A DNA stretch of 6,470 bases, taken from Treponema sp. GTDB lineage: Bacteria > Spirochaetota > Spirochaetia > Treponematales > Breznakiellaceae. The first letter of the stretch is position 1. Every line of letters starts with the position of its first letter. The notes below the pieces were generated by a model. That model saw only the letters and a program-made list of their open reading frames with translations, was not told where the DNA came from and ran no database searches. The position numbers and the translations under genes were made by a program. The stretch covers positions 1 to 6,470 of the forward strand of contig JAIRUO010000122.1 in the NCBI GenBank assembly GCA_031254385.1. Direction: 5' to 3'. Positions 5-6,470 of this stretch are shown here, piece by piece.

Positions 5-184
5 ATGCGGATGCGAAGAACCATAAAACTACCTGGAGTATCTTTCATTCCGATATTTATCCTAATAGTTATAGCGATGTTTTCAGGCTGTGGGAAAGGT
101 GTCCCTACTCCCCACTCCCCACTCCCCATTTGCCTCGTTCAGGGACATTCCCGGCGTTACAGCGGAGGAAATTGCTGCTATTGA
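5..184 (+). CDS. Out-of-frame lipoprotein signal peptide of the downstream kinase (5' gene fragment)
   Basis: This 59-codon reading frame starts at ATG 5 (a second in-frame ATG is at 11) and stops at TGA 182-184. It begins MRMRRTIK, a positively charged n-region, continues with a hydrophobic stretch ending IPIFILIVIAMFSGC, and has a lipobox-like F-S-G-C with Cys29 at 89-91. This is a type II (lipoprotein) signal peptide; Phe at -3 is unusual but fits relaxed lipoboxes such as those of spirochaetes. Beyond about codon 34 the frame runs through the ACTCCCC repeats into low-complexity sequence and ends, while the next frame carries the solute-binding domain that needs export. I infer that this is the true 5' end of the kinase gene, separated from it by a frame change at 107-127. 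Any ribosome binding site lies left of the window. The signal peptide is convincing; its status (phase-off allele, broken gene or sequencing error) is open. Confidence 0.72.
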   Translation: MRMRRTIKLPGVSFIPIFILIVIAMFSGCGKGVPTPHSPLPICLVQGHSRRYSGGNCCY

Positions 185-3100
185 AGCCTTGAAACAAGGT
201 TCATTGCGGCAGACCGGTGCCTTTATATATGGAACGACTCCCAACTCTGAGTCTTTTATCGGTGACGATGGAGAAGTCCACGGTTTCACCGCCCTGTTTT
301 GCGAATGGATGAAGGATCTGCTTGGCCTGCCGTTTAGGCCGGTAATCTACAGTTGGGGCGATTTGGTCAACAGACTTGAAACAGGCGAAATTGATTTTAC
401 CGGCGAGCTTACCCCCGTAGAAGATCGCCGCGATACTTATTTTATGACCAGCGCCATAGCAGAACGCACGATCAGGTATTTTAGAATACAAGATAGCCCG
501 CCGTTTGAAGAAATAGCGCGGCTGCATCCGCTGCGCTACGCCTTTTTAACCGGCACTACCACCTGGCGGGCCGTTATTGCCTCTTTCTCAAGCTTGGATT
601 ACGAGACTGTCTTTGTTGACGACAGCTCCCTTGTTTACGATATGCTGAAAAGTGGCGAAGTAGATGCATTCTTTAACGAAGGCCCCGGCGAATACATCTT
701 TGATATTCATGGCGACGTTGTAAGCCATTCTTTTGTCCCGCTCATTGTCGAGTCGGTATCGCTTGCCACGCGCAAAGAGGCCCTTCTCCCAATAATTTCC
801 GTTATGAATAAGGCTATATTAAACGGCGGCAGGAGTTACCTTTCGCAGTTGTACAACAGAGGTTACCTTGATTATCAAAGGCATAAATTGAATTTGCGCC
901 TGACAGATGAGGAACGCACATATCTCCAGAACAATTCTACTATCCGGGTGGCGGCCGAGTACGACGGCTACCCTGTAAGCTTTTACAATGCCTACGAAAA
1001 TGAATGGCAGGGCATCGCCTTTGACATACTGGATGAAGTAAAACAGCTTACCGGGCTTAAGTTCGATGTGGCTAACGGGCGTTATGCGGAATGGCCCGAA
1101 TTGCTAGAAATGCTTAGAAGCGGCGAGGCCGCCATGATAACGGAACTCCTGCGTACCGATGATCGCATTGGGCTTTATGTATGGCCGAAAAATTTTTTCA
1201 TCTCGGACAACTTTGCGCTTTTATCCAAATCCGAATATCCCAATTTGAGCCTGAACGATATTATGAACGCGAGAGTGGCGTTACGAAAAGATACCGCCTA
1301 TGCAGAGCTGTTCTACAAATGGTTTCCGAACCACGCGCACACTTTTGAGTATGAAAGCCATAACCAAGCCTTTGGGGCTCTGGTGAGGGGTGAGGTTGAT
1401 GTAGTTATGTCCGACCGCACGGAGCTTCTTTATTTTTCAAACTATAACGAACTTCCGGGCTACAAAGTAAATCTGGTGTTTGACCGACCGTCTGAAACCA
1501 CCTTTGGCTTTAATGCGGGCGAAGGCGTATTAGCCGACATCATTGACAAAGCGCTTATGCTTGTAGATGTGGAAGCCATTTCCAGCAATTGGTTATACAA
1601 AACCTACGACTACAAGGCAAAATTGCTTGAGGCGCAGCGCCCGTGGCTGTTTGGCGCGATTGGGCTGTCCTTGGTCGTACTGAGTCTGATACTGGTCATG
1701 CTATACAGAAGTCGCAATGTAAGGAAACTGCTTTCAAGATTGGTGGCGGAAAAGACAGCCACAATTAGAACAGAAAGCGTAAGATTCAAAGAAAGGGCAC
1801 ACTGGTATGAGTCAATACTTCATAGCATACCGTTCCCCCTTTCAATTACCGATACTGAGCGGAAATGGACCTTTGTCAATGCGGCTACTAGTAATTTTCT
1901 AGGCGAGAAAATACAAGACCTTGTCGGCAGACCTTGTAGCAACTGGAACGCCAACATCTGCAAAACACCCGATTGCGGTATTGAATGTGTTCTTCGTGGC
2001 GTAAAGCAGACGCGCTTTTCACAGAAAGGATTATCCTATCAAGTCGATGTTGAAATACTGAAAAGTCTGGAAGGTGAACCCATAGGCTTTATCGAATTTG
2101 TGCAGGATGTTACAAAACTGGAGCAGGCGATAAAACAGGAAGCAGAAGCAGAAGCCGCTAATCGCGCCAAATCTATGTTTTTAGCAACCATGAGCCACGA
2201 AATTCGCACGCCCATGAACGCAATAATAGGCATGGCGGAGCTTGCCCTCCGTGCTGATAATATAGAGGCAGCCCGCGAACACGTCTTTACGGTAAAACAA
2301 GCCGCTGCCAACCTTCTATCAATTATTAACGACATACTGGACTTTTCAAAAATAGAGACAGGGAAACTGGAAGTAGTCTCAAAGGATTATTTATTTTCAT
2401 CGCTGGTAAACGACGTGATAAATATCATCAGGATGCGCGCAATTGATTCGAAGCTGCGCTTCGTCGTCAATATAGACTGTAGCATACCGAATGCATTGAT
2501 TGGCGATGAAATAAGGATACGCCAGGCATTGCTGAACATACTGGGGAATGCGATCAAATATACAGAAAACGGCTTTGTCGCGTTCACGGTGCGCGTGACA
2601 CAGATTGAGGAAGACACGGTAAAACTTGAGATGGAGGTAAAGGACTCAGGCATAGGGATAAAGGAAGAGAACATAAAAGGACTGTTCCACGAGTATGCGC
2701 AGTTTGATCTGGAGAAGCACAGGGGCATAGAAGGGACTGGCCTTGGCCTGGTGATAACGCGGGGCATTCTGGAGGCGATGGGGGGTGACATCGGAGTAAA
2801 ATCGGAATACGGCAAAGGCAGCGTTTTTACGATTAACCTACCGCAGCAGATTCGCTCAAATAAAGCTCTGGCATCTGTCGAAAACCCTTCAGAAAAGAAC
2901 GTTCTGATGTTTGAGCGACGTGAAGTATACGTGGATTCGATAATGCATACAATGGAAAACCTCGGGGTAAAGTGTTTATTTGTATCGGATGACATGGAGC
3001 TACAAGAAAAGCTGTCAAGCGGGGAATATAATTTTATTTTTATGCCTTATGGGCTGTATATAAAGAGCAGGGACACAATAACAGAGTTTGAACGAAAAGT

Positions 3101-3668
3101 AAAAACAGTAGTGCTAACGGAATTTGGTGAAACGGTGCCTGGTAACAAAATAAACGCGCTGGCGATGCCGGTATACTCGCTGCCGGTTGCTAACATATTA
3201 AACGGAACAACAGACAGTTTCTCATACAGCGTAAGCAATGAATTCACGGCAAGGTTTACGGCACCCGAGGCGAGTGTTCTTGTGGTAGACGACATACTAA
3301 CAAACTTGAAAGTGGCTAACGGACTTCTTTTGCCGTATAAGATGCGTGTTGATTTGTGCAAGAACGGCATGACCGCAATAGAGGCAGTAAAAATGAATCG
3401 CTACGATTTAATATTCATGGATCACAAGATGCCGGAGATGGACGGAATAGAAACGACGCTCAAGATACGGGCGATGGGGGAAGAAGACGCGTACTACAGC
3501 GAAGTGCCTGTAATAGCGCTGACCGCCAACGCTGTTTCTGGGACGAAAGAGATGTTTATGGAAAACGGGTTTAACGATTTCCTGTCAAAACCGATAGACA
3601 CGGTGAAGCTTGACGCTGTTCTGGGAAGATGGATACCAAAGGAAAAACAAAAAAGCGATATTATATAA
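90..3668 (+). CDS. BvgS-like hybrid sensor histidine kinase with two solute-binding domains
   Basis: Membrane hybrid kinase, 1192 codons from GTG 90. Domains in order: family-3 solute-binding domain 1 (about residues 43-265); domain 2 (about 284-508); membrane helix (518-541) followed by a basic stretch; PAS (about 566-680) with Cys616, 624, 629 and 633; HisKA with H-box His703; HATPase with N-box Asn816/Asn820, Asp852-x-Gly-x-Gly and a Gly882-Thr-Gly-Leu-Gly lid; a receiver-like domain (936-1042) with Pro986 at the phospho-acceptor position; and a true receiver (about 1063-1180) with Asp1067/1068, acceptor Asp1111, Thr1145 and Lys1167. The order resembles BvgS/EvgS, but no HPt domain follows. 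Periplasmic ligand binding is expected to control His703 autophosphorylation and transfer to Asp1111; the ligand is unknown. GTG 90 is a poor start: it lies inside the lipobox codons of another frame, lacks a clear Shine-Dalgarno and gives no signal peptide. The natural start is probably ATG 5 or 11 after a frame correction at 107-127. Confidence 0.93.
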   Translation: MGKVSLLPTPHSPFASFRDIPGVTAEEIAAIEALKQGSLRQTGAFIYGTTPNSESFIGDDGEVHGFTALFCEWMKDLLGLPFRPVIYSWGDLVNRLETGEIDFTGELTPVEDRRDTYFMTSAIAERTIRYFRIQDSPPFEEIARLHPLRYAFLTGTTTWRAVIASFSSLDYETVFVDDSSLVYDMLKSGEVDAFFNEGPGEYIFDIHGDVVSHSFVPLIVESVSLATRKEALLPIISVMNKAILNGGRSYLSQLYNRGYLDYQRHKLNLRLTDEERTYLQNNSTIRVAAEYDGYPVSFYNAYENEWQGIAFDILDEVKQLTGLKFDVANGRYAEWPELLEMLRSGEAAMITELLRTDDRIGLYVWPKNFFISDNFALLSKSEYPNLSLNDIMNARVALRKDTAYAELFYKWFPNHAHTFEYESHNQAFGALVRGEVDVVMSDRTELLYFSNYNELPGYKVNLVFDRPSETTFGFNAGEGVLADIIDKALMLVDVEAISSNWLYKTYDYKAKLLEAQRPWLFGAIGLSLVVLSLILVMLYRSRNVRKLLSRLVAEKTATIRTESVRFKERAHWYESILHSIPFPLSITDTERKWTFVNAATSNFLGEKIQDLVGRPCSNWNANICKTPDCGIECVLRGVKQTRFSQKGLSYQVDVEILKSLEGEPIGFIEFVQDVTKLEQAIKQEAEAEAANRAKSMFLATMSHEIRTPMNAIIGMAELALRADNIEAAREHVFTVKQAAANLLSIINDILDFSKIETGKLEVVSKDYLFSSLVNDVINIIRMRAIDSKLRFVVNIDCSIPNALIGDEIRIRQALLNILGNAIKYTENGFVAFTVRVTQIEEDTVKLEMEVKDSGIGIKEENIKGLFHEYAQFDLEKHRGIEGTGLGLVITRGILEAMGGDIGVKSEYGKGSVFTINLPQQIRSNKALASVENPSEKNVLMFERREVYVDSIMHTMENLGVKCLFVSDDMELQEKLSSGEYNFIFMPYGLYIKSRDTITEFERKVKTVVLTEFGETVPGNKINALAMPVYSLPVANILNGTTDSFSYSVSNEFTARFTAPEASVLVVDDILTNLKVANGLLLPYKMRVDLCKNGMTAIEAVKMNRYDLIFMDHKMPEMDGIETTLKIRAMGEEDAYYSEVPVIALTANAVSGTKEMFMENGFNDFLSKPIDTVKLDAVLGRWIPKEKQKSDII
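107..127 (+). repeat. Heptanucleotide tandem repeat (ACTCCCC) x3
   Basis: Three perfect copies of ACTCCCC occupy 107-113, 114-120 and 121-127, followed by one further matching base (A128). The tract lies exactly between the signal peptide frame (codons starting at positions 2 mod 3) and the kinase frame (0 mod 3). Seven is 1 mod 3, so removing one unit, or adding two, joins the two frames. The join with two units would read ...CGKGVPTPHSPFASFRDIP. The repeat is plain in the sequence; its role as a switch is inferred. Heptameric short tandem repeats also occur as dispersed elements in some bacteria, notably cyanobacteria, so a genome-wide repeat family is possible. Confidence 0.9.
2137..2866 (+). 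repeat. Transmitter direct repeat, copy 1 (in gene 1)
   Basis: This block covers the coiled-coil end after the PAS domain, HisKA and HATPase. From 2163 to 2866 it aligns without a gap to 5767-6470, at a constant offset of 3604. By hand count of 235 codons, 92 of 705 bases and 30 residues differ, about 87% identity for both DNA and protein. The longest perfect run is 50 nt at 2499-2548, over the N-box. Identity is roughly 84% before 2499 and 90% after. The sensor parts upstream share no evident homology, so the left edge is near 2137, at the AEAEAANRAKS motif. The right edge cannot be set because copy 2 leaves the window. Confidence 0.93.
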
Positions 3669-3723: not shown

Positions 3724-6470
3724 ATGGAAGCTGAATTGATATTATTTTTCGTCTCAATGCTTGTTTTCGGCACAATAATTGTTTTGCTTGTAAATAAGCG
3801 GAATCTTAGTATACGTGACCGTCGGATGAAATATTTCTATCCTATGGGAATTGCGGCGCTTGTCTGGATTGTGTTAAACGCGGTTACGATAGTCATAAAC
3901 CCTAAATATTTTCCGTATGTATACACGGCCAAAGTAATATTCGTCATTATTGAGGTTTATCTGTGTACATGGTTTCTCATTAATTTTGCCGAATCGAAGC
4001 TGGCTGATTCCCGGATTTTTCGCTCCGTGCTTATTATAATACCTGTAGTGGATCTTTTGCTATTGCTCACCAACCCGCTACATTGGCTTTTTTTTACCGC
4101 TTATAATTATCCCATAGCAATAAAAGGCCCCATTTTCAATATACATGTTTTTTTGATAGTCTCTTCCCTTTTGTTTTCTTCTGTAATTGTAGTCATTTAT
4201 GTGGCGAAAAATTTTAAGCAGTATCCGTTATTGTCTCTCACAACTATCGGGGTAATTATACCTATTGTGTTGAATATGCTGTTTTCTTTCAATCTCATCA
4301 AATTTGAACACGATATGTCTCCGGTAGGATATATTTTCTTAATAATTGCTTTTTTATATTTCGCAAATGTTACCCGGCTTGATACGACAAAAAGGCTTAG
4401 CCATGCGCTGGCGGAGATTACAAAAACCTCCGCCCTTTCATCAGGCATAGTGGAAGAATCCGCCAAGATTATAGCGCAGGAAGCTTGCCAGGCGTTGAGT
4501 ACGAACTCTATACGGATTGGAATATGGAATTTCCTGGAAGAAAAAGCTGTTGTCAAAAGTATAACATACTATTGCCTGCAAAGCGGAAAACATTCCATTC
4601 AGGATGATTTGGACCTGTCAGGTTGCCCGGAATATTTAAGACTCCTCAAATCCGAACGCGTGATTTTAATCAACAACGTGAAGATACCCAACCCGCTTTC
4701 CCCTATCCTGGATTCGTACGGGCCCAATATATGCGCACTGCTTGACGCGCCCATACGTATTGCCGGCAAGCTTGTGGGCATCGTTTGTATTGAGCAGGAC
4801 AGATGTAGGGAATTTCCGCAAAAGCGCGAATGGACGACAGAGGAACAAAATTTCGCTTCCTCCCTTGCTGACTTCATGGCGATTGCCATATCTAGTTTTG
4901 AACGCCATAAGATTATGCACCGCGTTGAAACGATGATGAGCAATCTTCCCGGCATGGTCTACCAGTATCTCAACAACCCACCCAGTTTTACGTTTACCTT
5001 TGTCAGCGAAGGCAGCCTGGAACTAGTGGGATATACGCCGGAAGAACTTATGGGCAACAGCCTACAAAAATTTGTAGAAATGGTGCATCCAGAGGATCTT
5101 GACCAGCTTAAAAAGCAGGTTGCCAAAACGCTCTCTGTTGGATCGCCGCTAGAGACTACATATCGCATTGTATTGAAGGATGGTACGATTAAATGGATTT
5201 GGGAACGCAGCCGTGTGGTTGAGTTTGAGCTGGACGGTACGGCGCACCTTTTTGAAGGCTTTTATACCGATATTACCGAACAGAAGCGGCTGGAGGCTGC
5301 GGAGGCCGCCAACTTGCGGAAGCAGAATGAAGCGGAGGCAAAGATAAGCGAGGCCGATGAGCGCGCACAACTTATATTTGACACCGCACCGCTTGCCAGT
5401 TGTATGTTTGGCAAGTACCGTGACGTAGTTGACTGCAATCAAGAAGTGGTAAAAATGTTCGGAATACCGAGCAAAGAGTTTTTCTTGAATAATTTTTTTA
5501 CATTGCTGATCCCAAAATATCAGCCCGACGGAGCATTGTCTGCCGAGGTGTCGGAGGAAAATGCTCGTATAGCGTTTGAAAAAGGTTATCACCGTTTTGA
5601 GTGTATGCACCAAAAACTGAACGGCGAGCCCCTGCCCTCCGAAATAACTATGGTACGCGTCAAGTACCGGGGGGAATACGCGATAGCGGGGTATTTCCGG
5701 GATTTAACCGAACAAAAGGCGATGGTGCAGCTTGCGAAACAGCAGGCGGAAGCGGAAGCCGCAAACCGCGCCAAATCCTCGTTCCTGGCCTCAATGAGCC
5801 ACGAAATCAGAACGCCAATGAACGCGATAATTGGTATGGCGGAGCTTGCACTCCGCGCCGATAACATCGACACAGCCCGCGAACACGTCTCTACGGTAAA
5901 ACACGCCTCCGCCAACCTTCTGTCAATAATCAACGACATATTGGACTTATCTAAAATAGAGACGGGAAAACTGGAAATAGTCTCAAAGGATTACCTGTTC
6001 TCATCGCTTATAAACGACGTGATAAATATAATAAGGATGCGTGCAACCGATTCTAGGCTGCACTTCGTCGTCAATATAGACTGCAGCATACCAAACGCAT
6101 TAATTGGCGATGAAATAAGGATACGCCAGGCATTGCTGAACATACTGGGGAACGCGGTTAAATATACGGAAAACGGCTATGTCTCTCTCACGGTGCGCGT
6201 GACACAGATAGAGGAAGAAACGGTAAGGCTCGGGATGGAGGTAAAGGATACGGGCATAGGGATAAAGGAAGAGGACATGAAGAACCTGTTCCGCGAATAC
6301 GCGCAGTTTGATATGGAGAAGAACAAGGGCATAGAAGGGACTGGCCTTGGCCTGGTGATAACACGGAACATTCTGGAGGCGATGGGGGGCGACATCGGAG
6401 TAAAATCGGAATACGGCAGGGGCAGCGTTTTTACGATCAACCTACCGCAGCAAATTCGCTCAAATAAAGC
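3724..6470 (+). CDS. 7TM-GAF-PAS-PAS sensor histidine kinase, 3' end beyond the window
   Basis: An open frame of 915 codons begins at ATG 3724 behind GAGGAG and has no stop before the edge. Seven hydrophobic helices (about residues 5-23, 39-58, 66-88, 98-118, 137-161, 168-192, 199-218) form a membrane sensor like the 7TM N-terminal domain of histidine kinases. Then follow a GAF domain (about 235-395), a PAS domain of the PAS_3 kind ending in a YTDITEQ motif (405-520), a charged coiled coil (521-550), a second PAS (about 550-665), HisKA with H-box His693, and HATPase with Asn806/Asn810, Asp842-x-Gly-x-Gly and a Gly872-Thr-Gly-Leu-Gly lid. All catalytic motifs are intact. There is no signal peptide and no solute-binding domain, so the stimulus differs from that of gene 1. 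It lies 55 nt after the gene 1 stop without a visible terminator or promoter, so the two are probably co-transcribed. Its last visible residues match gene 1 (IRSNK), which predicts receiver domains beyond the edge. Confidence 0.93.
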   Translation, partial: MEAELILFFVSMLVFGTIIVLLVNKRNLSIRDRRMKYFYPMGIAALVWIVLNAVTIVINPKYFPYVYTAKVIFVIIEVYLCTWFLINFAESKLADSRIFRSVLIIIPVVDLLLLLTNPLHWLFFTAYNYPIAIKGPIFNIHVFLIVSSLLFSSVIVVIYVAKNFKQYPLLSLTTIGVIIPIVLNMLFSFNLIKFEHDMSPVGYIFLIIAFLYFANVTRLDTTKRLSHALAEITKTSALSSGIVEESAKIIAQEACQALSTNSIRIGIWNFLEEKAVVKSITYYCLQSGKHSIQDDLDLSGCPEYLRLLKSERVILINNVKIPNPLSPILDSYGPNICALLDAPIRIAGKLVGIVCIEQDRCREFPQKREWTTEEQNFASSLADFMAIAISSFERHKIMHRVETMMSNLPGMVYQYLNNPPSFTFTFVSEGSLELVGYTPEELMGNSLQKFVEMVHPEDLDQLKKQVAKTLSVGSPLETTYRIVLKDGTIKWIWERSRVVEFELDGTAHLFEGFYTDITEQKRLEAAEAANLRKQNEAEAKISEADERAQLIFDTAPLASCMFGKYRDVVDCNQEVVKMFGIPSKEFFLNNFFTLLIPKYQPDGALSAEVSEENARIAFEKGYHRFECMHQKLNGEPLPSEITMVRVKYRGEYAIAGYFRDLTEQKAMVQLAKQQAEAEAANRAKSSFLASMSHEIRTPMNAIIGMAELALRADNIDTAREHVSTVKHASANLLSIINDILDLSKIETGKLEIVSKDYLFSSLINDVINIIRMRATDSRLHFVVNIDCSIPNALIGDEIRIRQALLNILGNAVKYTENGYVSLTVRVTQIEEETVRLGMEVKDTGIGIKEEDMKNLFREYAQFDMEKNKGIEGTGLGLVITRNILEAMGGDIGVKSEYGRGSVFTINLPQQIRSNK
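5741..6470 (+). repeat. Transmitter direct repeat, copy 2 (in gene 2, runs off the window)
   Basis: Partner of the block in gene 1, same orientation and codon phase, offset 3604 without gaps from 5767 to the last base. It encodes the coiled-coil end, HisKA and HATPase of the second kinase. The 50-nt perfect run is at 6103-6152 here. Most residue changes are conservative (K/R, I/V, D/E, S/T, F/Y), and no catalytic residue differs. Because similarity is undiminished at the edge, and is highest near it, the repeat very likely continues into the following receiver-coding region. Confidence 0.93.

Follow-up and report, generated by a model that had tools for sequence, protein, structure and literature searches.

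The ACTCCCC tract at the frame break of a hybrid sensor kinase gene is most probably (about 55%) a copy of a dispersed quadruplex-type ACTCCCC/GGGGAGT repeat of the host's wider group, lodged incidentally in a tolerant linker, with a unit number that puts this allele out of frame. The frame break, the intact frames of the relatives and the repeat family, which was counted in the relatives' genomes, are direct readings. We infer three further points: the cell itself carries the break, the gain or loss of 7-base units produced it, and it arose incidentally, not as a switch under selection.

The window, which is the whole stretch of DNA analysed, is a contig of 6470 bases and carries two sensor kinases in tandem, both on the + strand. 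ATG 5 begins MRMRRTIKLPGVSFIPIFILIVIAMFSGC in frame 2. This frame (5-184, + strand) encodes a lipoprotein signal peptide (5-91) with the lipobox FSG|C, identified by eye against SGC in the relatives, followed by the tract-encoded VPTPHSPLP and an unrelated tail, and it ends at the stop codon at 182-184 after 59 residues. The contig start leaves 4 bases before ATG 5, and the true start of frame 2 could be further upstream. The first kinase (90-3668) is a hybrid sensor kinase with SBP_bac_3 in two stretches, a hydrophobic segment recognised by eye, PAS_4, HisKA, HATPase_c and a response regulator domain; GTG 90 as its start is simply the first start codon of frame 3. The second kinase (3724-6470) was identified as an ORF with matches to HisKA_7TM, GAF, PAS, HisKA and HATPase_c, and is cut by the contig end. 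Sequence comparison revealed a 734 bp repeat at 5737-6470 (+ strand), 86.8% identical to 2133-2866 of the first kinase, which covers the kinase core of both kinases and reaches the last base of the contig. Both kinase ORFs possess no other frame break, and since the remainder of the kinase frame is open, any lesion would be recent.

Three perfect ACTCCCC units, forming a solo C-rich arm, were found at 107-127 (+ strand) by TRF and pattern search. TRF extends the repeat to 102-128 with 3.9 copies, the first of them imperfect. On the - strand, 103-127 contains four G-runs with short loops (GGGGAGTGGGGAGTGGGGAGTAGGG), a putative G-quadruplex assigned by pattern. A search with ACTCCCCACTCCCC, allowing at most 2 mismatches, gave two overlapping matches, both of which are the tract, against 0.01 expected in the shuffled window. 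A chance origin of the tract was rejected on this count and on the dispersed family in the relatives. No opposite arm of the GGGGAGT type was found in the window, which begins 106 bases upstream of the tract.

The kinase frame, frame 3, is blocked upstream by stops at 24, 63, 66 and 72, and its earliest starts are GTG 90 and GTG 99. Peptides of the relatives align to frame 2 until SGCGKG and to frame 3 from SPFASFRDIPG, and this switch across the tract places the frame change within it. Frame reading thus confirmed what the original prediction described, namely a signal at 5-91 in one frame, three units at 107-127 and the kinase in the next frame. Its arithmetic is also correct: two or five units fuse the signal with the kinase, and three or four do not. 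The heptamer contains no stop codon in any frame of either strand, and it encodes TPHSPLP on the C-rich strand whichever frame is read. The 3' edge of the tract falls on conserved SP codons, which may seed it.

Fusion of the two frames in some ribosomes by +1 slippage at a CCC-C quadruplet within the tract is very improbable. The shift needed is indeed +1, and in frame 2 a CCC codon is followed by C, which gives a quadruplet with a special role in +1 frameshifting. The tRNAPro is frameshift-prone according to the available part of one paper (PMC4519876), and tRNAPro lacking m1G37 gives +1 shifts according to an excerpt of another (PMC7577736). However, the tract-bearing relatives described below are simply in frame.

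Signal and sensor lie in the same frame at all 47 distinct N-termini that could be read in DNA relatives (59 loci offered), as they did in a stricter first pass (13 of 13). These N-termini are at most ~51% identical to that of the window, and the relatives at 75-83% are known as proteins only. A conserved frame break was rejected on these readings, and the break, as far as seen, is confined to this contig. The search for DNA relatives covered genome contigs, the family of the Treponema-related genome G001, the order (390 genomes drawn from more), a Holophaga-related family, a Fibrobacter-related order and viral contigs; over nearly the whole sensor half the best match was 52% identical, and no orthologous locus for DNA comparison was found there. 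The genomes of some relatives carry up to 8 matches to the sensor half, so loss of one copy should be bearable.

Among the protein relatives, the best 120 of 716 were examined. A FRDIPG-like motif is present in 118 of these 120 matches listed, one of which is the window's own protein. A hydrophobic segment precedes the motif in 114 of the other 117 motif-bearing proteins among the same matches listed (120 of 716), and the three exceptions, P0041, P0095 and P0113, all have short starts. The linker is unconserved; the distance between cysteine and motif ranges from 7 to 28 residues across the 94 of 118 proteins among the matches listed that have a recognised lipobox. Read from GTG 90 or GTG 99, the kinase frame of the window reaches a hydrophobicity of 0.51 ahead of the motif (12-residue scan), against at least 2.45 in 14 close relatives, which agrees with the earlier statement that the kinase has no usable signal of its own. 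Translation from GTG 90 or 99 as a cytoplasmic kinase is therefore hard to credit, even though GTG 90 starts the longest ORF: besides the missing hydrophobic segment, every DNA N-terminus read carries a signal in frame, and a sensor half that binds solutes should be located outside the membrane.

Similar tracts appear to be present at the same place in other kinases. In P0124, whose sensor half is 48% identical, the sequence is SGCGKAV-TPHSPLLTPHSP-FFSFRDIPG, in frame, and its linker looks like a five-unit tract. P0121 reads CS-PAPHSPLPTSQSP-FATFRDIPG, and P0008 possesses CVPTPNSPSTALITPFASFLDIPG at the linker; both look like degenerate tracts. Because the heptamer gives TPHSPLP in every frame of the C-rich strand, the linkers of all three proteins look like in-frame tracts, judged from protein letters only. 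P0121 and P0124 came from searches targeted at the N-terminus, and their number is no measure of frequency; the pattern scan of the best 120 of 716 proteins found array-like linkers in P0001 and P0008 only. No tract is present in P0002, the closest relative, at 82% across the sensor half. The continuous frame that the original prediction proposed to look for in close homologues is what the relatives show.

In a tree of 41 proteins, several forks of which are weak, the tract-bearing P0001, P0008, P0121 and P0124 lie apart. The window's protein is sister to the tract-free P0002 (99/99), P0008 branches outside the twelve nearest of the window's protein, and P0124 and P0121 belong to another clade, among members without a tract. 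This scatter favours several acquisitions of the tract, which are more likely than one old tract as far as the sequences indicate. Heptamer arrays were also observed upstream of kinases of the same family, in G187 and G120; the loci of these arrays and of a contig of G195 described below are L129:3226-3239, L170:2001-2063 and L029.

The heptamer is dispersed in the genomes of two groups, those around the Treponema-related G001 and around G004, a Fibrobacter-related MAG; such MAGs are presumably of termite gut origin. Exact matches to the 14-mer ACTCCCCACTCCCC were found in 11 of the 195 genomes in the G001 family. The richest genomes have 100, 29, 27, 25, 13, 11 and 10 overlapping matches and the other four have 1 to 5; the remaining 184 have no exact match. 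A reversed-pattern control gave 0-2 matches per genome in this family. In the order of G004, 10 of 113 genomes carry the 14-mer, with up to 27 matches per genome, and no exact match was detected in the other 103. Among literature titles, no study of an ACTCCCC/GGGGAGT repeat in Treponema-related or termite-gut genomes was found. Six IMG/VR records (L046-L052) also carry ACTCCCC arrays, one of them with 10 matches.

From the 11 genomes, 68 stretches were taken at the first places of each genome only, so that they hold part of all arrays, and one listed array (G123, C24, start) was left out. They contain 76 arrays, in which the number of perfect units ranges from 2 to 7 and is most commonly 2 (44 arrays) or 3 (22 arrays); the two 76-entry lists used for unit counts and for distances to contig ends are not identical. 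By eye, the unit variants GGGGAAT and AGGGAGT occur beside GGGGAGT. An opposite-strand arm is present within 600 bp of 33 of the 76 arrays, a pair of two perfect arms being counted twice, and by the same rule 43 arrays are solo. Of the control positions, 106 of 5227 have a G-rich arm as near. In the paired arms the G-rich arm comes first and the C-rich arm second, 33 to 0, an order in which the arm pair could form a hairpin.

For five of the 76 arrays in the relatives' assemblies, a contig end is at most 130 bp away, where 1.25 such arrays would be expected (P ~0.008, assuming independent arrays, two of the five sharing one contig). In G195, a contig was seen to end inside a long array, with an adjoining gene 81.5% like the gene upstream in G187. 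The excess near contig ends bears on the possibility that the break is an assembly or sequencing slip at the contig end and that the real tract is in frame. This explanation is unlikely, and yet deserves weight: the tract stands 106 bases from the contig start, and the opposite contig end falls inside the 734-bp kinase repeat. Against it, the two kinase ORFs contain no further frame break, and a tract of 21 bases fits within a short read and should normally be resolved.

A crude gene model of longest-ORF guesses assigns 39 arrays to ORFs and 37 to the intervals between ORFs. In 16 of 20 ORFs tested, Pfam matches either flank the array on both sides or span it; these ORFs were picked as open across the array, which favours in-frame cases, so the result shows that arrays can sit in frame and not how often genes break. 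The frame of the host gene is kept in these 16; in the window it is broken. According to Pfam, the genes with in-frame arrays include two class I tRNA synthetases (L110, L140), PriA (L150), HydF (L132), threonine synthase (L145), a MgsA/RarA-like protein (L115), Lnt (L123), an AMP-binding enzyme (L130), an HRQ1-like helicase (L141), NeuB (L154), and FemAB (L134) and TrmD (L143; G171, 1400-2290), the last two being counted without a position for the second stretch. A BcrAD/DUF2229 protein carries the array at one site in three genomes (L139, L146, L167). L137, of histidine biosynthesis, is an ORF that may join two genes, a HisA/F type and PRA-CH, which are often separate. In the available part of one paper, tRNA modification by TrmD suppresses frameshifts at proline codons (PMC8643618). 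In the other 4 of the 20 ORFs (L138, L124, L175, L131), Pfam did not match both flanks of the array.

None of the 9 flanking pairs with Pfam matches on both sides is a gene split across the array; 17 flank pairs were tested (18 loci listed), with 4 matched on one side and 4 on none. Six arrays lie at the very end of an ORF. Truncation was judgeable in 2 of these six genes, L169 and L127, whose domains run to, or almost to, the end of the profile.

At the BcrAD site, the anchor-to-anchor distance varies between 34 and 181 residues in four array-bearing loci. In 8 of 20 further loci, those readable by pattern, it is 12 to 44 residues; the ranges thus overlap, and the loop is variable anyway. Two ACTCCCC-free loci of this type, L187 and L194, carry other repeat-like linkers (TSHGGTEAQRED, TSRKGAKAQRED), and the loop seems to collect different repeats. 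The heptamer arms in the BcrAD-type gene of G187 (L146:2065-2451) enclose an ORF whose product matches the 23S rRNA intervening-sequence four-helix protein family (PF05635, E 2e-40), and a similar stretch was noticed by eye at the BcrAD-type site of G190 (L167); a heptamer-bounded element may carry the PF05635 gene. A core of ~150 bp with a heptamer arm was found in the RarA-like gene (L115:1876-2031, G123) and in PriA (L150:2026-2171, G187), with 80% identity, which may be a sign of an element moving between genes and genomes.

With the tract as an incidental copy of this repeat, the frame break would be explained as follows. The tract occupies the stretch that links the lipobox cysteine to the first solute-binding domain; this linker is unconserved and appears to tolerate very different peptides. 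A heptamer without stops that reads as the same peptide in all frames would do little harm when the total length keeps the frame. The unit number would then set the frame, and the three-unit allele would be out of frame. Translation from the visible start would yield the 59-residue truncated lipoprotein, and the kinase, made at most from an internal GTG, would stay unexported. Reversal of the break by slippage is possible in principle.

The original prediction regarded the contig as the OFF allele of a phase-variable export switch, in which slipped-strand mispairing toggles the fusion of signal and kinase. We consider this doubtful, and the OFF state of a contingency locus in particular gave way to the finding that the heptamer is scattered between and inside unrelated genes of the relatives: its presence in the kinase is thus no sign of selection for switching, and a contingency-specific tract as the default was rejected on the same ground. 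The frame arithmetic and the open kinase body do fit a switch, as do the in-frame relatives with a tract at the same place, one reading like five units and two degenerate, and heptamer tracts drive phase variation at the hmw1A promoter in the accessible part of one study (PMC8262952). However, the many unrelated sites of the heptamer include housekeeping genes, the nearest relative P0002 has no tract, and three perfect units stand against the 11 to 24 given for hmw1A in that text, which upholds the earlier remark that three units are few. Given that the tract has three units, that paralogues are numerous and that the contig ends 106 bases off, we give a fixed lesion or an assembly slip at least the same odds as a switch under selection.

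A reversible switch would equally leave the kinase body open, and a family of switches would likewise show linker tracts that recur with differing apparent lengths. It is speculative that, in gut spirochaetes and neighbouring groups, a mobile heptamer repeatedly entered the linkers of exported sensor kinases and acts there as an export slippage switch, so that cells of one population differ in which paralogous sensors reach the envelope. A two-component sensor had been called an uncommon target. It would still be uncommon as a switch, and among literature titles no sensor kinase gene switched by such a repeat was found, the nearest being covS mutations. A regulator as slippage target does have a precedent in Mga of group A Streptococcus, by an excerpt of the report (PMC10330708).

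Were the tract a switch, export would be the step at which a two-component sensor is phase-varied, an uncommon situation. Even as an accident, it draws attention to a repeat family found in genomes of two distant groups. Members of this family enter coding sequence, tRNA synthetases, PriA and TrmD among them, and are over-represented near contig ends. Before a frame-broken kinase on a metagenome contig is called a pseudogene or a switch, it should be checked for heptamer tracts.

Among known systems, the Haemophilus hmw1A repeat is similar in being a seven-base tandem repeat beside a surface gene, and it differs, in the available text, in lying in the promoter region with 11-24 units and a graded effect (PMC8262952); here the repeat lies in coding sequence, has 3 units and is a candidate switch only. 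Similar to the Rickettsia palindromic elements (RPE), of which the portion of a review at hand names ten families of ~150 bp, palindromic repeats sit in frame inside unrelated protein genes (PMC10969869). Unlike the ~150 bp RPE, this family has arms of tandem heptamers and, at one site, spans that vary between 34 and 181 residues. The window also holds a solo arm, out of frame, and an opposite arm accompanies 33 of the 76 arrays of the relatives. The dispersed quadruplex-forming heptamers GGGAATC in Xanthomonas and GGGGA(C/T)T in Nostoc, as presented in part of one paper (PMC4692102), share with this family a G-rich unit, a chromosome-wide scatter, at least two units, a preference for four G-runs and some intragenic copies; they differ in the unit, GGGGAGT here, and in the hosts, here Treponema- and Fibrobacter-related. 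The tract itself is a G-rich heptamer in tandem with at least two units, as in such repeats. In the same part of that paper the published heptamers vary widely in length between close relatives and mostly keep their sites (PMC4692102), which fits a repeat without a dedicated switch role.
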